Positions 40,876 through 49,935 of a DNA stretch of 62,551 nucleotides are shown in pieces; position 1 is the first letter of the stretch, and the number at the start of each line of letters is the position of its first letter. A model generated the notes under the pieces. That model made no database searches. It worked only from the letters and a program-made list of their open reading frames with translations, and was not told the origin of the DNA. The stretch is taken from positions 1 to 62,551 of the forward strand of contig JAFTFX010000009.1 of NCBI GenBank assembly GCA_017458225.1, written 5' to 3'. The stretch is from Prevotella sp. (GTDB taxonomy: Bacteria > Bacteroidota > Bacteroidia > Bacteroidales > Bacteroidaceae). Both the position numbers and the translations under genes were made by a program.

Positions 40876-41754
40876 ATGGCAGAAAATACGCATAGCGAGC
40901 AAGAATTACTCATGAAGTTAGGCAATCTCGTTGTTGACTATTCTGATAATGACATTGCTATTTATGACCATGTGTCAAACGTTTCTCAGCTGCTACCGCT
41001 GAAGCCCAGCAAGAACCTGATAGCCATGTGCAGTTCGGGGTATCTGACGATTCGCGTAGACGAGAAAACCTACACTATTCGGGCTAACGATGTGCTGTTC
41101 TGTCCGCCCAACGTTTGCATCGATCCCGTTGACATCAGTTCCGACTTTGAGTGCAAGTTGCTGAGCCTCTCGGACCGCATCATCCAAGGACTGCTGCACG
41201 ACAAGATAGAAATTTGGCATCGTGCCGTCTACATCAACAATGTGAACGTCATCAGTATGTCGGAAGTGTGCAAGCAGGAGTTCGTCTTCTACTACGGCCT
41301 CATCCTCTCAAAGATTCAGAACCACAAGGTGGTGCCCTACGATATTCTGCAAGCACTCATCAGGGCCCTGTTGCTGGAGCTCTGCCAGATACTGGCCAAC
41401 ACGCAGGGACCGGCCGACGACGTGAAGCCCACGCAGGGCCGAATGCTGTTCAACCGTTTCCTGAAACTTATCTCAAGCAACGAGGTGAAGCGCCGTCCCA
41501 TCACCCACTATGCCGGACAGTTGGCCATCACGCCGAAGTATCTCACCATGCTTTGTCTGAAATACAGCAACAAGACGGCCTCCGACTGGATTGTGCAGTA
41601 CACCATTGAAGACATTCGCTTCTACCTGCGCAACTCAAACCTGAGCATCAAGGAGATTTCCGCCAAACTGGGCTTTGCCAACATGTCGCACTTCGGCAGC
41701 TATGTGCGGAAGCATCTGGGCGCATCGCCCAGCGACTTCCGTCACGAAAGGTAG
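40876..41754 (+). CDS. AraC-family transcriptional regulator
   Basis: A 292-aa regulator. An N-terminal cupin-like sensor region (IRANDVLFCPPNVC, about residues 70-90) is joined to a C-terminal AraC double helix-turn-helix (about 190-290: YAGQLAITPKYLTMLCLKYSNKTASDWI, IKEISAKLGFANMSHFGSYVRKHLGASPSDFR). The effector is unknown. It has its own upstream region with a run of nine A and a near-consensus GATATTTG -7 box. It converges with the JAMM protease gene at the left border of the sulfur island, so it is one candidate regulator of that island. Confidence 0.93.
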   Translation: MAENTHSEQELLMKLGNLVVDYSDNDIAIYDHVSNVSQLLPLKPSKNLIAMCSSGYLTIRVDEKTYTIRANDVLFCPPNVCIDPVDISSDFECKLLSLSDRIIQGLLHDKIEIWHRAVYINNVNVISMSEVCKQEFVFYYGLILSKIQNHKVVPYDILQALIRALLLELCQILANTQGPADDVKPTQGRMLFNRFLKLISSNEVKRRPITHYAGQLAITPKYLTMLCLKYSNKTASDWIVQYTIEDIRFYLRNSNLSIKEISAKLGFANMSHFGSYVRKHLGASPSDFRHER

Positions 41755-41767
41755 AAGCAATCAATGC

Positions 41768-42160
41768 CTACAGGTGCTGCTCCTTGTCAACGACTGCGGC
41801 GTTCAAAATTTTGAACGAGTTCAGCTTCGGCTCGTCGTTGAGCAGCGAAAGGATGGCATAGCGAATGGTGGGGTCGTTGGCCAGACGCAGGTCTTCCTGC
41901 GAAGGGCGCGAGGGCGAGGCTGGATGACTATGCCAGTTGGCCAATATTTTCAGGCCTTTGGAACGGGCATAGCGCAGGGCTGCAAACTGGTCCTTGGGGG
42001 CAAAGGAGAAGTGCTCTGGCGAGTGGTCGATGTTCTCCATCCAGTAGTTCTCGGTGACGTTGCCGTCGGCCGTACCTAAAAGATAGCCACACGACTCGTT
42101 GGGGGCATCCTTGCGAGCCTGAACTATCAGTTCGTCGATGATATTCTGTGGAATTTTCAT
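41768..42160 (-). CDS. JAMM/MPN+ metalloprotease for a ubiquitin-like sulfur carrier (Mec+/HcyD-like)
   Basis: A zinc isopeptidase-type protease of 130 aa that probably trims the C-terminus of the sulfur carrier or releases the amino acid built on it. The JAMM set is complete: Glu22 (in NESCGYLLG), His77 and His79 in NWHSHP, Ser87 and Asp90 in SQEDLRLA. The ATG at 42160 gives MKIPQNIIDEL. A GTG at 42172 overlaps the stop of the E1-like gene and would add four residues, so translation is coupled in either case. Known analogues are Mec+ of the Mycobacterium CysO pathway and HcyD of Wolinella. The neighbours fit this role. Confidence 0.9.
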   Translation of the reverse strand: MKIPQNIIDELIVQARKDAPNESCGYLLGTADGNVTENYWMENIDHSPEHFSFAPKDQFAALRYARSKGLKILANWHSHPASPSRPSQEDLRLANDPTIRYAILSLLNDEPKLNSFKILNAAVVDKEQHL

Positions 42161-42168
42161 TTTACTTT

Positions 42169-42975
42169 TCACTTATGAAGGTCGCACGCTGCCTGCTCGT
42201 AGTCAATGAGATGGTCGATCGTGGGATGACTGCCGCAAATAGCGCATGTGTCACGATGCTTGACCGGCACCGTGCGGAACGTCATGGTCTTGGCATCGAA
42301 GGTGAGCAGACGGTTGGTGAGCAACTGACCGATGCCCGTGAAATACTTCAGCGTCTCGGCAGCCTGAATGGTGCCCAGCATGCCGGCAATGGCTCCCAGC
42401 ACACCTGCCTGCGAACAGGTGGGAACGGCGCCCACAGGAGGCGGCTCCTTGAACATGCAGCGATAGCAGGCTGTGCCAGGCAAGTGTGTAAAGGTCTGGC
42501 CGTTGAAGCGCAGAATGCCACCATGCGAGAAGGGCTTGCCGGCCATGACGCAGGCATCGTTGATGAGGAACTTCACGGGGAAGTTGTCAGTGCCGTCGAC
42601 CACGAAGTCGTACTCCTTGATGATGTCGAGGGCATTCGACGAATCGAGGAAGTCGTGATAGGTGTCGACCTTCACGTCGGGGTTGATGGCCAGCATTTTC
42701 TCCTTGGCACTCTGCACCTTGGGCACACCCACATCCTTGGTGAAATGGATGACCTGGCGCTGCAGGTTCGACAGGTCGACAACGTCGGCATCGATAATGC
42801 CGATGCGACCAATGCCAGCGGCAGCCAGATAGAGCGAGACGGGGGCTCCCAGTCCGCCGGCTCCCACCACCAGCACGCGCGCATTCATTATTTTCTCTTG
42901 TCCCTCTACGCCTACGTCCTGCAACAGTATGTGGCGCGAGTAACGCTGTATCTGTTCTTCAGTAAAGTCAATCAT
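42169..42975 (-). CDS. HesA/MoeB/ThiF-family E1-like sulfur-carrier adenylyltransferase
   Basis: It activates the carrier C-terminus as an acyl-adenylate, ready to accept sulfur. The 268-aa protein has the nucleotide-binding fold VLVVGAGGLGAPVSLYLAAAGIGRIGIID (about 34-62), the RQVIHFTKDVG motif, and DGTDNFPVKFLINDAC with the Mg-binding Asp. Two zinc-binding pairs are present (Cys170/Cys173 and Cys244/Cys247), plus the conserved Cys187 in PTCSQAGVLG. It lies between the carrier gene (41 bp upstream) and the JAMM gene. The family also serves thiamine and molybdopterin synthesis. No thiamine or molybdopterin gene is nearby, so the sulfur amino acid role is favoured. Confidence 0.93.
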   Translation of the reverse strand: MIDFTEEQIQRYSRHILLQDVGVEGQEKIMNARVLVVGAGGLGAPVSLYLAAAGIGRIGIIDADVVDLSNLQRQVIHFTKDVGVPKVQSAKEKMLAINPDVKVDTYHDFLDSSNALDIIKEYDFVVDGTDNFPVKFLINDACVMAGKPFSHGGILRFNGQTFTHLPGTACYRCMFKEPPPVGAVPTCSQAGVLGAIAGMLGTIQAAETLKYFTGIGQLLTNRLLTFDAKTMTFRTVPVKHRDTCAICGSHPTIDHLIDYEQAACDLHK

Positions 42976-43016
42976 AATATCTCACTTAAAGCGGTAGCAA
43001 ATTTTTCACTTCTCAC

Positions 43017-43226
43017 TTAACAGCCTCCTCCCATGAAGTAGAGGAAGTCTACCTTGTCGTCTTCCTTAACCTGGATGTTGTCCCAGTCGTCGCGCTCGGC
43101 AAACTCCTCGTTCACCTGCACCGACACCATTTCCGGATTTTCCACCAGCAGCGCCTTGATCAGCTCTGTTACATTCAGCGGCAGGGTTACTTCCTGCGCA
43201 TCTCCGTTTACATAAATTCTTGCCAT
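43017..43226 (-). CDS. ThiS/MoaD-family sulfur carrier protein ending Gly-Gly-Gly-Cys
   Basis: A ubiquitin-like carrier of 69 aa whose C-terminal glycine is converted to a thiocarboxylate. The beta-grasp pattern is clear (MARIYVNGDAQEVTL, VQVNEEFAERDDWDNI, DDKVDFLYFMGGGC). Instead of ending in Gly-Gly, it ends Gly-Gly-Gly-Cys, so at least the Cys must be removed before activation. The JAMM protease in the same operon is the obvious candidate, as for HcyS of Wolinella, which carries an extra residue after Gly-Gly. It is the first gene of the leftward operon and has a consensus promoter. Confidence 0.92.
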   Translation of the reverse strand: MARIYVNGDAQEVTLPLNVTELIKALLVENPEMVSVQVNEEFAERDDWDNIQVKEDDKVDFLYFMGGGC

Positions 43227-43252
43227 AGTCTTACTGTTGAATGATTACTGTG

Positions 43253-43283
43253 CAAAGGTACGCTGATTTCGCGGATGCCACAA
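43253..43283 (-). promoter_or_regulatory. Promoter of the sulfur-carrier operon
   Basis: The -7 box is TACCTTTG (complement of 43253-43260) and TTG (complement of 43281-43283) lies 20 nt upstream. The leader is about 20 nt. Confidence 0.75.
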
Positions 43284-43303
43284 TCCCACGAAGGGGGTAA
43301 ATG

Positions 43304-43325
43304 ACATACCATATCATAGGTATGT
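43304..43325. promoter_or_regulatory. Candidate operator midway between the divergent sulfur promoters
   Basis: The inverted repeat ACATACC-N8-GGTATGT is centred at 43314.5. The two -7 boxes begin at 43260 (minus) and 43369 (plus), whose midpoint is also 43314.5. One dimeric factor could therefore control both operons symmetrically. The binder is unknown. Confidence 0.6.
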
Positions 43326-43345
43326 AAAATGCCTTTCATGTGCGA

Positions 43346-43376
43346 TTGTGTGACAGTGGAAAACGGCGTAACTTTG
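43346..43376 (+). promoter_or_regulatory. Promoter of the cysK-encapsulin operon
   Basis: TTG at 43346-43348, a 20-nt spacer and TAACTTTG at 43369-43376. The leader is about 30 nt. Confidence 0.75.
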
Positions 43377-43411
43377 CAGCAAAAATTCAAAACAAAAAAA
43401 ATTGATTCGTT

Positions 43412-44350
43412 ATGGGACAGATTGCAAAGAGCCTGACTGACCTGATAGGCCACACGCCACTGGTAGAGCTGACGGGCACCGAGACGGAACTGAAACTGAA
43501 GGCGCGCGTGATTGCGAAGCTGGAATACCTGAACCCGCTGCGCAGCGTGAAAGACCGCACCGCGCTGGCCATGATTGAACGTGGCGAGCACAAGGGACTG
43601 ATAAGTCAGAACACCACGCTCATCGAGCCTACCAGCGGCAACACGGGCATCGGCCTGGCATACGTGGCAGCCATACGCGGCTATAAGCTCATACTGACCA
43701 TGCCCGATGCTATGTCGATAGAGCGGCGCACACTGCTGAAAGCGCTGGGTGCCACCTTAGTGTTAACGCCTGCGCACGAGGGCATGGCCGGTGCCATCCG
43801 CCGAGCCAAGGAACTGGCCGAGGAGATAGGCGATGCCTACATACCACAGCAATTCGAGAATCCTGCCAATCCAGAGGTACACCGCAGAACAACGGGTGAA
43901 GAGATCATCAGCGACACCGACGGCGAAGTAGACTTCTTCGTGAGCGGCATAGGCACAGGCGGCACCATCACAGGCGTGGGACAGACGCTCAAACAATACA
44001 ACCAGAAAGTGAAGATAGTGGGCGTAGAGCCCTACACATCGTCGGTGCTGTCGGGCGAGCGGCCCGGTCCCCACAAGATTCAGGGCATCGGAGCCGGATT
44101 CCAGCCGAAGGTGCTCGACACTACCATCTACGACGAGATTCTGCGCATCAAGGACGACGAGGCCTTCGCCATCGGACGACTGCTGGCACAGAAAGACGGC
44201 ATACTGACGGGCATCTCCAGCGGAGCTGCCGCCGCCGCTGCCATCAAGCTGGCGCGCCGACCTGAGAATGAGGGGAAGACCATCGTGGTGCTGCTGCCCG
44301 ACACAGGCGAGCGCTACCTGAGCACACAACTATACAATTTTAATGAATAA
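43412..44350 (+). CDS. cysK: Cysteine synthase (O-acetylserine sulfhydrylase family)
   Basis: A PLP enzyme that makes cysteine from O-acetylserine and a sulfur donor, either sulfide or a carrier thiocarboxylate as in CysM of Mycobacterium. It has 312 aa. The PLP lysine is Lys47 in NPLRSVKDR. PTSGNTGIGLA and the phosphate loop GTGGTITG are intact, and the end LLPDTGERYLSTQLY is typical of CysK. It heads a six-gene rightward operon and starts 5 bp before the DsrE-like gene. Whether it uses free sulfide or the carrier encoded across the divergent promoter is the main open question. Confidence 0.95.
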   Translation: MGQIAKSLTDLIGHTPLVELTGTETELKLKARVIAKLEYLNPLRSVKDRTALAMIERGEHKGLISQNTTLIEPTSGNTGIGLAYVAAIRGYKLILTMPDAMSIERRTLLKALGATLVLTPAHEGMAGAIRRAKELAEEIGDAYIPQQFENPANPEVHRRTTGEEIISDTDGEVDFFVSGIGTGGTITGVGQTLKQYNQKVKIVGVEPYTSSVLSGERPGPHKIQGIGAGFQPKVLDTTIYDEILRIKDDEAFAIGRLLAQKDGILTGISSGAAAAAAIKLARRPENEGKTIVVLLPDTGERYLSTQLYNFNE

Positions 44351-44355
44351 AGACA

Positions 44356-44835
44356 ATGGCTGAAACAAAGAAACTGAGCATCATCGCCTTCAGCGGCGAT
44401 TTCGACAAACTGACGGCTGTCTTCACGCTGGCCACCGGCGCGGCTGCCGTAGGATACGAGGTGAACATATTCTTCACGTTCTGGGGACTGGATGCCATCA
44501 AGCACAAGCTGGGACGTTCGTTCACAGGCGGCAACTGGCTGACAAAGCTGTTCGGCTTCATGATGGGCGGTCTGCATGTCACTCCCACCTCGCGCTTCAA
44601 CTTCCTCGGTGCAGGTCCCAAAATCTTCCGCTACCTGATGCGCAAGAACAACGTGGCCACACTCGAAGAACTGGTAGAGGCCGCCAAGGTGCTGGGCATC
44701 AATCTCTATGCCTGCGAGATGGCCATGCATGTGCTGGGGCTGAAGAAGGAAGACTTCATTCCCGAAGTGAAAGACGTGCTTGGCGTGGCCTCGTTCCTGA
44801 AACTGAGCGAAGGCGGACAAACATTATTCATATAA
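44356..44835 (+). CDS. DsrE/DsrF/DrsH-like sulfur-relay protein
   Basis: A 159-aa protein of the DsrE-like (peroxiredoxin-like) superfamily. The pattern KKLSIIAFSGDFDKLTAVFTLATGAAAVGYEVNIFFTFWGLDAI and the single conserved cysteine in NLYACEMAMHVLGL match the group that accompanies TusA proteins. It may hold sulfur as a persulfide on that Cys. It lies between cysK (5 bp) and the tusA-like gene (12 bp). The central GGNWLTKLFGFMMGGL suggests a partly membrane-associated or oligomerisation surface. Confidence 0.88.
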   Translation: MAETKKLSIIAFSGDFDKLTAVFTLATGAAAVGYEVNIFFTFWGLDAIKHKLGRSFTGGNWLTKLFGFMMGGLHVTPTSRFNFLGAGPKIFRYLMRKNNVATLEELVEAAKVLGINLYACEMAMHVLGLKKEDFIPEVKDVLGVASFLKLSEGGQTLFI

Positions 44836-44847
44836 ACCGACAACACT

Positions 44848-45072
44848 ATGGCAACAAAGGTACTGGACATCACGAAGGAACATTGCCCCATGACCTTCGT
44901 AAAAACAAAGATTGAACTTTCAAAACTGGCTGAGGGCGACACACTCGAGGTGCTGCTCAGCGAAGGCGAACCACTTGACAACGTGCCGCGCAATGCCAAG
45001 GAGCAGGGCTACAACGTTCTCAGCGTAGAACACGTGGAAGGCACGACGCACAAAGTCGTTATACAAAAATAG
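44848..45072 (+). CDS. TusA/SirA-like sulfurtransferase
   Basis: A small persulfide carrier of 74 aa. The active cysteine is in CPMTFVKTK (Cys13), where the usual TusA motif is CPxP; here the second Pro is Thr. Otherwise the fold (IELSKLAEGDTLEVLLSEGEPLDNVPRNAKEQGYNVLSVE) is typical. It is 12 bp after the DsrE-like gene and 30 bp before the encapsulin. TusA proteins accept sulfur from cysteine desulfurases, and a SufS-type desulfurase is encoded two genes downstream. Confidence 0.92.
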   Translation: MATKVLDITKEHCPMTFVKTKIELSKLAEGDTLEVLLSEGEPLDNVPRNAKEQGYNVLSVEHVEGTTHKVVIQK

Positions 45073-45102
45073 TCAAATACAAATAGTTAAATCGTAAATC
45101 AC

Positions 45103-46542
45103 ATGGCAGATTCAAATCTTCAGCGCAGTGTGACCACTGCCACGGCCAGACGGCTGGCCACCACAACCAAGACCGCCCCACAGATGGGCAGCATCACCCC
45201 ACGATTGTTACTGAAACTACTGCCCTGGGTACAGGTGAGCGGTGGCACCTTCCGCGTGAACCGCACAAAGGTAGAGTTGCGCAAGAGCGAGCGACTGCCC
45301 ATACAGTATCTCGACGGCGTGCCCTCGTTCTCGGCAAAGAGCCTGAAGGCCATCCCTCTGTTCTCTGAGTTCGACGACGAGATTGTTAATCGTCTGGCCC
45401 GCTCGTTCGAAACGGTAGAGGTAGAGTTGGGCAAACTGTTCGTGGAAGAGGGCAAGGACAAGCAGAAGTTCTTCATTGTGGCAGCCGGACAGGCTGAGGT
45501 CATCAGCAAAGGGCCTCACGGCGAGGAGCTGCGCATAGCCTTGCTGGGCGACGGCGAATACTTCGGCGAGGCCGACCTGCTCGACGATGCCGAGTCGACG
45601 GTGTCGGTACGTGCCATCACCCCCACCGTGTTCTTGGGCCTGAAACTGAAGGAACTGGAGAAGTTCATCAAGGAGGTGCCCGACTTCCGCGAGACGTTCA
45701 CCAAGGCCGTCGACAAGCAGTTGCGCCTGAAGGCTACCGTCAACGATCACGGCGAGAAGCACATCGACCTGGTGAGCGGCCATGAGGAGGACAACATCAT
45801 TCCTGAGACCTACATTGACTACGAGGAGCAGCCCACGGAATACTCGCTGAACACGCTGCAGACCGTAGTACGTGTGCATACCCGTGTCAGCGACCTCTAC
45901 AACAATCCTTACAACCAGCTGGAGGAACAGCTGCGCCTCTCTATTGAGAGCATTAAGGAACGCCAGGAATGGGAGCTTATCAACAACAAGAAGTTCGGAC
46001 TGCTCGCTGCCGTGAACCCTGCCTACCGCATCTCGGCACGCTATGGCTCGCCCACACCCGACGACCTCGACGAGCTGCTGTCACTGGTATGGAAAGAGCC
46101 AGCTTTCTTTGTGGCTCATCCGCGCGCCATTGCCGCCTTCGAACGTGAATGCACCTGGCGCGGCGTACCCCCTGTGACCACCGACCTATTCGGTACAAAG
46201 GTCATTCTGTGGCGCGGCGTGCCCATCATACCCTCAGACAAGGTTGAAGTGGAAGGCCAGTACCTCACGGGCCGTGGCGTAGGCACCACGAAGATTATCC
46301 TGGTGCGTACAGGTGAGCAGAATCAGGGTGTCATCGGTCTGCACCAGAGCGGCATTCCTGGCGAGATAGCTCCGTCGCTGTCAGCCCGACTGATGGGACT
46401 CGACAAGTTTGGCGTAGCCTCCTATCTGCTGACGAAATACTTCTCGCTGGCCGCCCTCACCGACGATGCCATCGCCGTGCTCGAGAACGTAGAGGTGGGC
46501 TATTATCACGATTATCAGCATAGGAACAAAGTAGAGAAATAA
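45103..46542 (+). CDS. Family 2B encapsulin shell protein with inserted cNMP-binding-like domain
   Basis: A protein that self-assembles into a hollow HK97-fold compartment around a cargo enzyme. It has 479 aa. The shell part (about 1-80 and 210-479) has family 2 signatures such as LNTLQTVVRVHTRVSDLYNNPYNQLEEQLRLSIESIKERQEWELINN and VGTTKIILVRTGEQNQGVIGLHQ. Residues about 83-205 form a cyclic-nucleotide-binding-like domain (LKAIPLFSEFDDEIVNRLARSFE, GEYFGEADLLDD), which defines family 2B. The phosphate-binding cassette keeps FGE but has DAESTVSV where CRP-type proteins have an Arg for the cyclic phosphate, so ligand binding may be altered. The stop and the next start overlap (TAATG). Confidence 0.9.
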   Translation: MADSNLQRSVTTATARRLATTTKTAPQMGSITPRLLLKLLPWVQVSGGTFRVNRTKVELRKSERLPIQYLDGVPSFSAKSLKAIPLFSEFDDEIVNRLARSFETVEVELGKLFVEEGKDKQKFFIVAAGQAEVISKGPHGEELRIALLGDGEYFGEADLLDDAESTVSVRAITPTVFLGLKLKELEKFIKEVPDFRETFTKAVDKQLRLKATVNDHGEKHIDLVSGHEEDNIIPETYIDYEEQPTEYSLNTLQTVVRVHTRVSDLYNNPYNQLEEQLRLSIESIKERQEWELINNKKFGLLAAVNPAYRISARYGSPTPDDLDELLSLVWKEPAFFVAHPRAIAAFERECTWRGVPPVTTDLFGTKVILWRGVPIIPSDKVEVEGQYLTGRGVGTTKIILVRTGEQNQGVIGLHQSGIPGEIAPSLSARLMGLDKFGVASYLLTKYFSLAALTDDAIAVLENVEVGYYHDYQHRNKVEK

Positions 46543-48050
46543 TGATAAACCTACAAAACATAAGCGGCTACGGAATTGAGGACCCTGGCTTTGAACTGCT
46601 CAGACAGGTGGCTCAAAAGTACTGTCCGGAGGAGCTGCAGCAGGATAGGCAGGCTGTATTGCCTGACGAGGCTCTTGACCTCTCCACGCTGACTGTTCTG
46701 TACGACGCGACATTGTCGCGTCCTACGGGACAGCAGGGTCAGTCGGCCATCGTCCCTGCAGATAACGGATTCGGCATAGGCATTCCTGAGACCGAGAAGC
46801 TGCAAAACCTGCACTATGAGGAAGTGGACACGCTGAATTCGGAGCAGATTAAGAAGGATTTCCCCGTGTTGCAGCAGAAGGTGAACGGGCATGACTTGGT
46901 GTGGCTGGACAACGGAGCCACCACACAGAAGCCCCTGCAGGTCATCGACAAAATTTCGGATTATTATAAGAACTATAATTCGAACATCCACCGCGGAGCC
47001 CACACCCTGGCAGCCCGTGCCACCGATGCCTACGAAGAGGCACGCGAGAAAGTGCAGCGCTTCATCAATGCTGCCAGCAGCGAGGAGATAATCTTCGTGC
47101 GCGGCACTACCGAGGGTATCAACCTCGTGGCACAGACCTATGGCCGGCAGTACTGTTCAGTGGGAGACGACATTATCGTCTCCGAACTGGACCACCACGC
47201 CAACATCGTGCCCTGGCAGCGCATTGCCCAAGAGCGCGGGGCCAACTTGAAGGCCATCCCCACCGACAAGAACGGCGATCTGGTGCTCTCGGAGTTCGAA
47301 CGCCTCATCACGCCTCGCACTCGCTTCGTCAGCGTAGGACACGTGAACAACACCTTCGGCACCATCAACGACGTGAAGCGCATCATCGACATTGCCCACG
47401 GGCACAACATTCCCGTGCTGATCGACGGTGCACAGTCGATTGCCCACACGAAGGTGGACGTACAACAACTGGGAGCCGATTTCTTCGTATTCTCAGGCCA
47501 TAAGATCTACGGTCCCAACGGCATCGGCGTAGTATATGGCCGCAAAGACCTGCTCGACAAAATGCAACCCTGGCAAGGCGGAGGCAACATGATCAAGGAC
47601 GTGACCATTGAGCGCACTGAATATAACGTGCCACCGGCACGCTTCGAGGCTGGCACACCCAATGTGGCTGATGCCATCGGTCTGGGTGCTGCCCTCGACT
47701 ACGTGAGCCACTTAGGCATTCGCAACATCGAAGCCCATGAGCACAAGCTGACCGAATATGCCCGAGAGCAGCTGGCCCTGATCCCCGGACTGACGCTCAT
47801 TGGCGATCCGAAACAGCGCGTCAGTGTGGTGAGTTTCGTGCTCGACGGCATTCCCGTGCCCGAGGTGGGCACCCTGCTCGACAAGGAGGGTATTGCCGTA
47901 CGTGCCGGTCACCACTGCGCCCAGCCAGCCCTGCGCGCCCTGGGCTACGAGATGAGCGTGCGCCCCACCTTCGCCCTCTACAATACCAAAGAGGACGTGG
48001 ACAAGTTGGTCATTGCCGTACGAAAGATAATAGGAAACAGAACGATATGA
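46542..48050 (+). CDS. SufS-type cysteine desulfurase with N-terminal encapsulin-cargo extension
   Basis: A PLP enzyme that takes sulfur from cysteine as a persulfide, leaving alanine. The 502-aa protein has about 100 extra N-terminal residues before the SufS domain starts (EQIKKDFPVLQQKVNGHDLVWLDNGATTQKP). The extension is rich in Pro, Gln, Asp and Gly (LSRPTGQQGQSAIVPADNGFGIGIPETEKLQN), as known for desulfurase cargo of family 2 encapsulins. The PLP lysine is Lys321 in FSGHKIYG; the sulfur-accepting cysteine is Cys459 in RAGHHCAQPALRALG. It overlaps the encapsulin gene by 1 base and the next gene by 4 bases, so expression is tightly coupled. Confidence 0.95.
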   Translation: MINLQNISGYGIEDPGFELLRQVAQKYCPEELQQDRQAVLPDEALDLSTLTVLYDATLSRPTGQQGQSAIVPADNGFGIGIPETEKLQNLHYEEVDTLNSEQIKKDFPVLQQKVNGHDLVWLDNGATTQKPLQVIDKISDYYKNYNSNIHRGAHTLAARATDAYEEAREKVQRFINAASSEEIIFVRGTTEGINLVAQTYGRQYCSVGDDIIVSELDHHANIVPWQRIAQERGANLKAIPTDKNGDLVLSEFERLITPRTRFVSVGHVNNTFGTINDVKRIIDIAHGHNIPVLIDGAQSIAHTKVDVQQLGADFFVFSGHKIYGPNGIGVVYGRKDLLDKMQPWQGGGNMIKDVTIERTEYNVPPARFEAGTPNVADAIGLGAALDYVSHLGIRNIEAHEHKLTEYAREQLALIPGLTLIGDPKQRVSVVSFVLDGIPVPEVGTLLDKEGIAVRAGHHCAQPALRALGYEMSVRPTFALYNTKEDVDKLVIAVRKIIGNRTI

Positions 48051-49279
48051 AATACGAGACCAAAGTCTTGACCACAAAGTATCAGAAGCCTGATGCCTAC
48101 GGAGCACTCAGTATGCCCGTCTACTACACGTCGGCCTTCGAGTTCCCATCGGCCAAGGCCATGAGCGATGCGTTTTGCGGCCGAAGCATGGCACCGTCGT
48201 ATTCACGCATTGCCAATCCGACAGTCACCTACTTGGAAGAGCGGGTAAGGCAAATCACGGGAGCCGTGAGTGTCACAGCACTGAACACGGGCATGGCTGC
48301 CATCCACTACGCCTTGACGGCAGTGAGTGCAGCCGGACTGAACATCGTGGCATCAAAACATCTGTTTGGCAACAGCGTGTCGCTCATTCGCGACACGCTG
48401 GGTGCATTCGGTGTGGAACCGCGTTTCGTTGATTTCACTGACCTGAAGGCGGTGGAGTCGCAGATTGACGATAAGACGTGTGCCCTATTCTTTGAGATTA
48501 TCACTAACCCACAGTTGTTTGTGGCCGACATCAAAGCGCTCTCGGAGATTGCCCATCAGAAAGGTGTTCCCCTGATAGCCGATACGACGATTGTACCATT
48601 TTCGACCCTCCATGCAAATAAATTTGGTGTGGATATAGAGGTGGTGAGTAGCACGAAATATATCTCAGGTGGTGGCACCGGACTGGGCGGTCTGCTCATT
48701 GACTATGGGTCGTTCGACTGGTCGCAGCACCCGTCGCCCGTTCTGCAAGCACGCACCAAGCGTGTTGGCAAGAAGCTGGCATTTACGGCGCGTGTAAAGA
48801 CTGAATTGGTGACTAACCTCGGTTCGCTGATGACTCCGCAGGCGGCTTACATGGAAACACTGGGACTCGATACACTCGATATCCGCTATCGCCGTCAGGC
48901 AGAAACTACGCTATGGCTTGCGCAACAATGCCTGCAAATATCTGAAATAAAGCGTGTAAACTATACGGGATTGAAGGACAATCCATTCCATGAATTATCT
49001 GAACGGCAGTTTGGCTCATTGCCCGGTGCTGTCTTCACCATCGATCTTGAATCGAAGGAAGCCGCCTGGTCGTTCATCGACAAGCTACAGGTCATTCGCC
49101 GCGCAACCAACCTGTTCGACAGGAAATCGCTGGCCATCCACCCTGCATCAACCATCTTCGGTCTGTTCACCCCTGAACAACGGGCAGAGATGAGTGTGGC
49201 CGAGACGACCGTGCGCCTCAGTATAGGACTGGAGGATGGAGAAGACCTGCTGGCCGACATTCGTCAGGCACTCAGCTAA
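48047..49279 (+). CDS. Trans-sulfuration-family PLP enzyme (MetY/MetB-like)
   Basis: A member of the Cys/Met metabolism PLP family, 410 aa, probably an O-acetyl- or O-succinyl-homoserine sulfhydrylase or a related gamma-replacement enzyme. The PLP lysine is Lys204 in VVSSTKYISGGGTGLGG. Other signatures are YSRIANPTVTYLEERV and LNTGMAAIHYAL, with RLSIGLEDGEDLLADIRQAL at the end. It overlaps the desulfurase by 4 bases (ATGA). In Wolinella a MetY enzyme takes sulfur from a carrier thiocarboxylate, which fits the ThiS/E1/JAMM genes in the divergent operon. Sequence alone does not separate MetY, MetZ and MetB. Confidence 0.9.
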   Translation: MKYETKVLTTKYQKPDAYGALSMPVYYTSAFEFPSAKAMSDAFCGRSMAPSYSRIANPTVTYLEERVRQITGAVSVTALNTGMAAIHYALTAVSAAGLNIVASKHLFGNSVSLIRDTLGAFGVEPRFVDFTDLKAVESQIDDKTCALFFEIITNPQLFVADIKALSEIAHQKGVPLIADTTIVPFSTLHANKFGVDIEVVSSTKYISGGGTGLGGLLIDYGSFDWSQHPSPVLQARTKRVGKKLAFTARVKTELVTNLGSLMTPQAAYMETLGLDTLDIRYRRQAETTLWLAQQCLQISEIKRVNYTGLKDNPFHELSERQFGSLPGAVFTIDLESKEAAWSFIDKLQVIRRATNLFDRKSLAIHPASTIFGLFTPEQRAEMSVAETTVRLSIGLEDGEDLLADIRQALS

Positions 49280-49293
49280 CCTTGCCCCCGTAC

Positions 49294-49935
49294 CTAAATA
49301 CACAAGAAAGAGGTGTCAATCCAGCCTGCGCGAAAGGCATATTTCATGGCTTCGTGGGCTGTATTGACACCCAATTTTCGGAAGATATTCTTTCGATGGG
49401 TGTTGATGGTATGCACACTTGAGAAACGTGCATTGGCAATCTCTTTCGTTGTCTTGCCCTGTGCGATAGCCTTTACAATCTCTATCTCGGTCGCCGTCAG
49501 TACGGCAGGCTGTTCTTCTTCCTGCTTTTGCGACAGAATCAATTCGGTAGCACGCTGGCTCACATAGCGTTTCCCCTCGGATGCCGACTGTATGGCATCA
49601 CGAATAGACTTCAGCGATTCGTCCTTGAAAAGCACACTGAACTGATGCGAGGAATAGATCACCTTGCGCAGGAAGCTTTTGGTCAGATCGTCGCTGAGCA
49701 GAATCCATGAGGACATGGCAAAACGCTCACTAATGATGAGCAACTGCTCCTCGTCCACAATGTCGAACAGCGTATAGTCGAGAATCACCACAGCATCTTC
49801 ATGCTCTTTCAGCAACTGGGTGAGTCCTGCCTTGTCCGTGGTTTGAAACACCTGATTGTTCTCGTCTCTTTTCAGCAGGCTGAGCAATGCAAATCGCGTC
49901 AAGTCCTGATTGTCGGCCAAAATAAAGTTCCTCAT
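49294..49935 (-). CDS. NarL/LuxR-family response regulator
   Basis: A 213-aa two-domain regulator. The receiver-like N-terminus keeps acidic residues Asp8 and Asp11, a candidate phospho-acceptor Asp53 in VVILDYTLFD and a Lys in LFKDES. The C-terminal LuxR-type HTH is clear (VLTATEIEIVKAIAQGKTTKEIANARFSSVHTINTHRKNIFRKLGV, about 145-190). No histidine kinase is nearby. It converges with the sulfur-island operon (14 bp between stops) and lies downstream of the rpoC terminator. It is a second candidate regulator of the island. Confidence 0.92.
   Translation of the reverse strand: MRNFILADNQDLTRFALLSLLKRDENNQVFQTTDKAGLTQLLKEHEDAVVILDYTLFDIVDEEQLLIISERFAMSSWILLSDDLTKSFLRKVIYSSHQFSVLFKDESLKSIRDAIQSASEGKRYVSQRATELILSQKQEEEQPAVLTATEIEIVKAIAQGKTTKEIANARFSSVHTINTHRKNIFRKLGVNTAHEAMKYAFRAGWIDTSFLCI

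Follow-up and report, generated by a model that had tools for sequence, protein, structure and literature searches.

Why should the genes of an encapsulin shell and of a cysteine desulfurase share one cluster with a ThiS-like sulfur carrier, its activating enzyme, a JAMM metalloprotease and two amino acid synthases? The question is raised by nine genes at 41768-49279 of contig JAFTFX010000009.1 (assembly GCA_017458225.1, Prevotella sp.), which was analysed as a stretch of 62,551 nt, called the window in the following. The closest named-record matches are Prevotella and Prevotellaceae metagenome-assembled genomes, many of them from the rumen, with Prevotella aff. ruminicola Tc2-24 among them. 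As set out below, the cluster probably encodes an HcyS-type thiocarboxylate pathway leading to homocysteine, and often to cysteine as well, in which the encapsulated desulfurase would provide the sulfur.

Gene content and co-inheritance

Profile scans of the translated frames revealed nine genes, all of them intact. The minus strand carries the JAMM metalloprotease, which is HcyD/Mec+-like (41768-42172; PF14464, 86.9 bits), the E1-like adenylyltransferase, which resembles HcyF and MoeB (42169-42975; PF00899, 272 bits), and the ThiS-like sulfur carrier (43017-43226; PF02597 and TIGR01683, the latter with 58.7 bits at a cut-off of 37.5). Beyond a divergent intergenic region of 185 bases follow, on the plus strand, a cysteine synthase of the CysK type (43412-44350; TIGR01139, 445 bits, cut-off 351), a DsrE2-like sulfur-transfer protein (44356-44835; PF13686, 135 bits), a TusA-like sulfur-transfer protein with the motif HCPMT (44848-45072; PF01206, 75 bits), the family 2B encapsulin shell protein (45103-46542; NF041163 encap_f2b, 566.5 bits, cut-off 400), the cysteine desulfurase, presumably the cargo of this shell (46542-48050; TIGR01979 SufS, 557 bits, cut-off 475), and a MetY-like O-acylhomoserine sulfhydrylase (48047-49279; PF01053, 290 bits). 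The same extent and the same nine assignments had been given in an earlier note on this DNA and are confirmed by the scans. That note had also described overlaps of 1-4 bases at several junctions. Those between shell and desulfurase (1 base) and between desulfurase and MetY (4 bases) stand, whereas the 4-base overlap of JAMM and E1 depends on a GTG start; most aligned relatives start at the equivalent of the ATG at 42160, probably the start in the window too, which leaves no overlap.

To place the cluster, 201 genomes of the same family as the window and a phylum-level sample of 395 genomes were used. The window's own genome (G000, 2.24 Mb) is 75% complete, hence its absences mean little. Stretches around the shell gene were read in 29 relatives (L031-L059) and in named GTDB records, of which the best 80 of 452 matches were taken (L090-L169). 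Both sets overlap (L045, for example, is the stretch of L166), and the counts of 95 carriers, 74 repeats and 106 or 105 cysteines given below are therefore not independent. Contig ends cut many of the named loci; loci flanked on either side by at least 8.4 kb are termed well-flanked. An encapsulin was called at the curated cut-off of NF041163 and a JAMM orthologue at E 1e-15 or better.

On these terms a family 2B encapsulin occurs in 30 of the 201 same-family genomes and a JAMM orthologue in 32, all 30 encapsulin genomes included (Fisher p 1e-33, kinship ignored). Inside the window's genus the same two of 13 genomes carry both. Shell, desulfurase, DsrE2 and TusA stand together in 29/29 relatives, and in 24 of these the carrier, E1 and JAMM genes lie in the same stretch. 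In the other five they are found elsewhere in the genome, again together: four times on another contig and once, in G199, on the contig of the shell itself, some 12 kb away from it. All seven genes were present in 13/15 well-flanked loci of the relatives and in 28/32 of the named records. Their order varies. The two groups may be divergent, the carrier genes may follow the desulfurase on its own strand, downstream of it, or both may be interleaved as CysK-ThiS-E1-DsrE2-TusA-JAMM-shell-desulfurase. An order that is shuffled while the content stays constant strongly suggests that the genes function together. The earlier note had been prepared to abandon its reading if the neighbourhood were not conserved in other genomes; carrier, E1 and JAMM are present in 30/30 encapsulin genomes.

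The carrier and the amino acid synthases

The carrier of the window ends in FLYFMGGG plus one extra residue, a Cys. All 95 FLYFMGGG carriers are tailed likewise, by 1-40 unconserved residues in 54 distinct tails, and none is untailed. The search pattern required FLYFMGGG and permitted an empty tail, and its yield equals that of tblastn, with 24 carriers in one large set and 61 in the other. A free tail after an invariant end argues for an end generated by cleavage, for which the JAMM would be the obvious protease. A special role of the terminal Cys of the window carrier was ruled out, since the tails vary freely.

The metal-site residues of the JAMM (E26, H81, H83, S91 and D94, arranged as H81xH83x7S91xxD94) are invariant in 18 aligned rows. 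In the 268 aa of the E1, PF00899 is the sole Pfam family matched, so that the enzyme is without a rhodanese domain; Cys187 as well as Cys170, 173, 244 and 247 are invariant in 14 aligned rows. We take these residues, like the conserved ones of desulfurase, TusA and DsrE2 described below, to have their usual catalytic roles.

A carrier above the TIGR01683 thiS cut-off could simply serve thiamine (ThiS) or molybdopterin (MoaD) synthesis and stand beside sulfur genes by accident, and in another class a 2B shell indeed adjoins ThiS and ThiG/H/F-like genes. We consider this extremely unlikely. ThiG was counted only if E was better than 1e-100, and six more genomes were excluded in which nothing beyond partial hits of 23-34 bits in longer frames was obtained (otherwise 20/32). 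Counted in this way it occurs in 13/30 encapsulin genomes, all of which have a separate ThiS of their own, and was not found in 17/30; seven of these 17 are at least 90% complete, all with the carrier set, and in five of the 17 the sole hit is a partial one, of about 27-34 bits, in a longer frame. The ThiS proteins encoded at thiG end exactly at GG in 14/14 cases, with no tail in any (0/14). Furthermore, JAB proteins are absent from thiamine and molybdenum cofactor operons according to the text of Iyer 2006 (PMC1779556). Judged by sequence, the carrier is a paralogue apart from the thiazole ThiS. The earlier note had named a carrier confined to thiamine or molybdopterin synthesis as a second reason for giving up its reading; a thiamine-only carrier was rejected on the ThiG distribution and the separate untailed ThiS at thiG. 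In rumen Prevotella, genes labelled thiS or thiF by annotation models may thus have their role in making amino acids.

For some JAB/E1 operons a role in protein modification has been proposed (Iyer 2006, PMC1779556). Transferred to the window, the carrier would be a ubiquitin-like modifier that the E1 attaches to proteins, perhaps to the shell, and that the JAMM removes. Against the model of the haloarchaeal desampylase, which has a cut-off of 130, the JAMM scores 60 bits. The neighbours, however, are amino acid synthases, the MetY is closest to 3ri6, and no E2 family was found among the ten window proteins scanned, the genome not having been searched for E2. We regard a modifier as very unlikely.

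Among PDB chains, 3ri6 is the best match of the window MetY with 367 bits, and the next chain follows with 263 bits. The chain 3ri6 is an O-acetylhomoserine sulfhydrylase, presumably the enzyme of the HcyS pathway of W. succinogenes. With 3ri6 ahead by 100 bits, the window enzyme would on sequence grounds belong to the carrier-using kind. The MetY proteins of the relatives (L031-L059) form two groups with about 50-57% and 64-85% identity to that of the window, which occupy different positions in the cluster; one member of the 50-57% group was scanned, and its best PDB match is also 3ri6 (327 bits). The cysteine synthase stays below the cut-off of the cysM model TIGR01138 (294 bits, cut-off 394) and above that of the cysK model, and is therefore classed as CysK and not as CysM.

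MetY lies in the stretch in 26/29 relatives, with one more cut by a contig end, and in 31/32 well-flanked named loci. The corresponding numbers for CysK are 20/29 and 14/32. MetY is the steadier partner and CysK is optional, and homocysteine is therefore more likely to be the main product. This modifies the relay drawn in the earlier note, from the shell by TusA and DsrE2 to the carrier and from there to CysK and MetY alike: the course of the relay fits the gene associations, the equal standing of its two end enzymes does not. With regard to the acceptors, a MetA match and a CysE-like match were each found in 27/30 encapsulin genomes. Five of the CysE-like matches are interrupted by a stop codon within the alignment, and the CysE query itself lies below the cysE cut-off. 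Neither protein was matched in G000, which its completeness of 75% can explain.

The desulfurase as presumed cargo and proposed sulfur source

The shell protein matches PF19307 at residues 209-466, with an insertion at 106-191 that resembles a cyclic nucleotide monophosphate (cNMP)-binding domain (PF00027). Its best PDB match is 9bje over residues 7-466. The combination of a SrpI-like HK97 domain with a cNMP-like insertion, at a score above the curated cut-off, places it in family 2B. True binders of cyclic adenosine monophosphate have an arginine at the position where the insertion in the window (gene 45103-46542) reads GEADLLDDAEST. This is in line with PMC12407261, where the insertion domain of 2B shells is reported to have been shown not to bind cyclic nucleotides and is described as sitting over the two-fold pore; desulfurase encapsulins are also stated there to store sulfur.

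In 29/29 relatives the shell is followed by the desulfurase as the nearest gene of the core set. K321 and C459 are invariant in 15 aligned rows. An N-terminal extension of about 95 residues is variable among the aligned relatives save for KYCPEE-like and GFGIGIPET motifs; the predicted structure, with a mean predicted local distance difference test (pLDDT) score of 53, is too poor to judge whether the extension is disordered. A second SufS match was found in 28/30 encapsulin genomes, the two with a single match being G000 and the 78% complete G165. That the desulfurase of the cluster is the sole SufS is thereby ruled out in 28 relatives, and the enzyme appears to be a dedicated one. The second SufS also bears on the idea that the role of the encapsulated desulfurase lies in iron-sulfur clusters or in the thiolation of tRNA, and that the amino acid genes just make its cysteine. 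A SufS-type desulfurase and CysK in one gene run would suit such a role; with another SufS at hand, and with MetY and the carrier set left unexplained, it is scarcely credible.

If the desulfurase feeds the carrier, DsrE2 and TusA would be the intermediaries. Cys13 of TusA is present in 106/106 matches and the motif HCPMT in 105/106; Cys120 of DsrE2 is present in 105/105. Both genes stay with the shell in the five genomes with the carrier outside the stretch, and with the carrier in two genomes of another class without an encapsulin match at E 1e-60, as a bridge between both would behave. A sulfite reductase (PF01077), in turn, was not matched in 27/30 encapsulin genomes, the 75% complete G000 included. 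It was matched in G023, G049 and G183, and in 4/50 of the genomes searched overall. In G028, G274 and G388, which have the carrier and lack this encapsulin, a different supplier adjoins the carrier genes, namely a sulfite reductase (in G274 and G388 a sulfite reductase-like gene, by eye) with TusA; this counts in favour of the desulfurase as supplier in the encapsulin genomes.

From these associations the following course can be proposed. The JAMM would trim the unconserved tail of the carrier and expose its glycine end, which the E1 would then adenylate. The desulfurase would draw sulfur from cysteine and hold or store it at the shell, and TusA and DsrE2 would relay it outward as persulfide, turning the adenylated carrier into the thiocarboxylate. 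MetY would join the sulfur of the carrier to O-acylhomoserine, or CysK to O-acetylserine, the amino acid staying on the carrier end until the JAMM frees it. The net direction would be from the sulfur of surplus cysteine to homocysteine without cystathionine, or else the remobilisation of stored sulfur, and storage in the shell would even out the sulfur supply. A more far-reaching version sees in the encapsulin a dedicated sulfur-donor organelle for methionine synthesis by thiocarboxylate, which has replaced sulfite reductase. DsrE2-TusA would gather sulfur at the shell and hand it over to a carrier that in every case is made with a removable cap, so that homocysteine would arise from cysteine or stored sulfur by a protein-borne transsulfuration free of cystathionine. 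We consider this version possible, although somewhat doubtful.

Several observations weigh against one continuous pathway. On the encapsulin-cargo model NF041166 the desulfurase reaches 721 bits, under the cut-off of 800, and the DsrE2-like protein reaches 69 bits on NF047629 at a cut-off of 210, hence its designation as DsrE2-like only. The cysteine synthase, being of the ordinary CysK type by its model scores, may use free sulfide. A desulfurase that feeds CysK would turn cysteine back into cysteine, which is futile unless stored sulfur is used. In G023 and G049 carrier genes and sulfite reductase share one contig, and the shell gene is on another. Carrier modules without this encapsulin in G274, G388, G028 and G039 demonstrate that the carrier needs no shell. 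In G028, carrier, E1 and JAMM adjoin cysD/N/H-like genes (identified by eye) and the gene of a sulfite reductase to whose C-terminus a TusA domain is fused (Pfam). G274 and G388, which belong to another class, have in one run a sulfite reductase-like gene (by eye), TusA, the carrier, MetY, E1, DsrE2, a HCPMT-type TusA and JAMM, and no encapsulin match at E 1e-60. In G039, which is 92% complete, neither an encapsulin nor a sulfite reductase nor a SufS match was found, and the sulfur source is unexplained. Finally, 2B shells of another class (L203 and L206, also L205 and L209) adjoin an untailed ThiS and ThiG/H/F-like genes, with no JAMM seen there.

Alternatively, both halves could be co-regulated and chemically separate, shell and desulfurase storing sulfur or releasing it as sulfide, carrier, MetY and CysK using free cytosolic sulfide, and DsrE2-TusA serving one side only. 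Carrier modules beside sulfite reductase without encapsulin, the sulfide-using type of CysK and the separate contigs in G023 and G049 speak for such an arrangement. We nevertheless rate it as rather unlikely: the carrier set accompanies the encapsulin in 30/30 genomes, a sulfite reductase only in three, and DsrE2-TusA, found in every one of the 29 shell stretches, is met again in another class, as part of its carrier operon. The thiocarboxylate pathway supplied by the shell remains the preferred explanation.

Two side observations concern these genomes. Sulfite reductases with a C-terminal TusA domain are encoded at L213:12170-14509 (Pfam) as well as at L257:6876-9164 and L258:6858-9227 (both by eye); the fusion is encoded close to the carrier genes in G028 and shares a contig with them in G023. 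In G039 (L214:2950-3320) DsrE2 and TusA are a remnant between E1 and JAMM, and the frames of CysK, carrier, E1, JAMM and a CysE-like protein are open.

In the phylum sample 2B shells were found in 54/395 genomes, all in one other family of another class, at a guess the Chlorobiaceae. Their identity is 62-66% over the 30 loci read; CysK is present in 29/30 and the desulfurase in 27/30 of these short loci. Eight loci were followed over a wider span, some cut by contig ends, and an E1 homologue was nearby in four. Two loci read gene by gene contain, in this order, CysK, a CysE-like gene, shell, desulfurase, a MetY-like gene, ThiS and ThiG-, ThiH- and ThiF-like genes (by eye). ThiS or ThiS/ThiG with cysteine synthase has been noted in Pelodictyon and Chlorobium in the text of Iyer 2006 (PMC1779556). 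The coupling of a desulfurase encapsulin to ThiS-type carriers may thus have arisen repeatedly and serve different products. In 22/395 phylum genomes a relative of the JAMM is present, and the loci with CysK among them resemble row 4c of Iyer 2006 (PMC1779556). The 19 JAMM loci outside the window's family have an adjacent E1 in 19/19 cases, CysK in 14 and DsrE2-TusA in two.

Known systems and neighbouring elements

The nearest counterpart is reportedly the HcyS/HcyF/HcyD/MetY pathway of Wolinella succinogenes, said to have been described by Krishnamoorthy and Begley in 2011 (cited in PMC5764234), with a tailed ThiS-like carrier, an E1, a JAMM and MetY. There HcyS is said to be made as HcyS-Ala and trimmed by HcyD, and the sulfur reportedly comes from sulfite reductase. 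The window shares the tailed carrier, E1, JAMM and a MetY matching 3ri6. It differs by an encapsulated desulfurase with TusA and DsrE2 in place of a sulfite reductase (no match in 27/30). If our reading is correct, it would represent a second sulfur source for pathways of the HcyS/CysO kind.

The SirA of Iyer and co-workers is presumably TusA. Row 4e of Table 1 in Iyer 2006 lists operons of ThiS, JAB, E1, SirA, sulfite reductase and O-acetylhomoserine sulfhydrylase (PMC1779556). Carrier, JAMM, E1 without rhodanese, TusA (SirA) and MetY of the window correspond to this row, in which encapsulin and desulfurase do not appear; the word DsrE is absent from the text as available (PMC1779556). With the CysO/Mec+/CysM system of Mycobacterium and its MoeZ (PMC3227635) the window has a carrier, an E1, a JAMM-type protease and a cysteine synthase in common. 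In contrast to the CysO system as presented there, the window has CysK instead of CysM, an E1 without rhodanese and a tailed carrier, and encapsulin, DsrE2 and TusA are added (PMC3227635).

On the other side, a shell gene beside a desulfurase with an N-terminal extension is known from desulfurase-loaded family 2 encapsulins (Nichols 2021, PMC8049743; PMC8346489), and 199 family 2B desulfurase operons have been counted (Andreas and Giessen 2021, PMC8346489). As accessory genes, serine acetyltransferase and rhodanese are named in the text consulted (PMC8049743, PMC8346489). A CysE-like gene is likewise part of the cluster in L035 and L042, and the window adds ThiS, E1, JAMM, TusA, DsrE2 and MetY. 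The earlier note knew of no description of the combination as one pathway. This has to be narrowed, because the half comprising carrier, JAMM, E1, TusA and MetY is contained in Iyer 2006 (PMC1779556). No open PMC full text that joins encapsulin with a sulfur carrier protein, a thiocarboxylate or TusA was found, nor, judged by title, one that deals with an encapsulin of Prevotella, subscription papers and supplementary tables, which may list such clusters, lying outside this scope. Each half, carrier operons and desulfurase encapsulins, is known; their joining, as far as gene content indicates it, appears to be new among the texts searched.

For encapsulated cysteine desulfurases, knockouts in Synechococcus are reported to be without growth phenotype (PMC8049743). 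Likely acceptors (TusA, DsrE2 and a ThiS-type carrier) and end enzymes that are genetically tied to one shell bear on the role of such desulfurases. The small set of proteins makes each step of the pathway open to in vitro testing.

Between the divergent operons lies the inverted repeat ATACC-N8-GGTAT (43306-43323, strand-neutral), which by its conservation among relatives is a probable operator. It is present in 32/36 divergent regions of relatives, with differing spacer letters. In 110 loci 74 copies were counted versus 1.6 expected by base composition, and 0-3 at other spacers of 2-20; of the control arrangements the everted and the direct one gave 0 and the reversed one 1. The repeat stands 20-400 bases before a gene of the set or a LuxR-type gene in 46/109 loci (6/29 and 40/80), and is therefore confined to part of the relatives. 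The window's LuxR/NarL-type gene (49294-49935, minus strand; PF00196) is convergent with MetY, at its 3' side, and is a candidate regulator of the set. A LuxR-type gene lies in the shell stretch in 15/29 relatives and 39/80 named loci, and is itself preceded by the repeat in five relatives; its product is a candidate for the protein binding the repeat. No genome-wide regulon is claimed. Counts were 11 versus 5 for the reversed control in G075 and 2 versus 1 in G000, compared with 7-11 versus 3-9 in four encapsulin-free genomes of the genus, so that the repeat is no commoner genome-wide in the two encapsulin genomes than in these four.

The -7 consensus of Bacteroidota is TAxxTTTG. Two candidate elements were located by eye, TACCTTTG at 43253-43260 on the minus strand for the carrier operon and TAACTTTG at 43369-43376 on the plus strand for the cysK operon. 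A sigma-70 scan of the divergent region gave one match versus 0.5 expected and was not used. The AraC-type gene at 40876-41754 was rejected as a member of the set, as it is not conserved (weak identity of 20-30%, and coverage above 0.6 in 4/80 named loci).

Some relatives encode further proteins close to the set. A PstS-like protein is found near carrier genes in L217:9413-13414, L219, L049, L053 and L166:1536-2492, several times behind ATACC-N8-GGTAT (by eye). The L217 copy was scanned and gave no Pfam or NCBIfam match. The predicted fold (pLDDT 81) is that of a periplasmic binding protein, with 4jwo as the best Foldseek hit (E 6e-10). In L217 the next gene encodes a SusC/RagA-type receptor, and both proteins together might perhaps take up a sulfur compound. 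In L041:110-1291, and by eye also in L126:6921-8105, the gene of an SDF-family symporter immediately precedes DsrE2-TusA-shell, from which the repeat separates it; uptake of an amino acid or of cystine would fit such a symporter.

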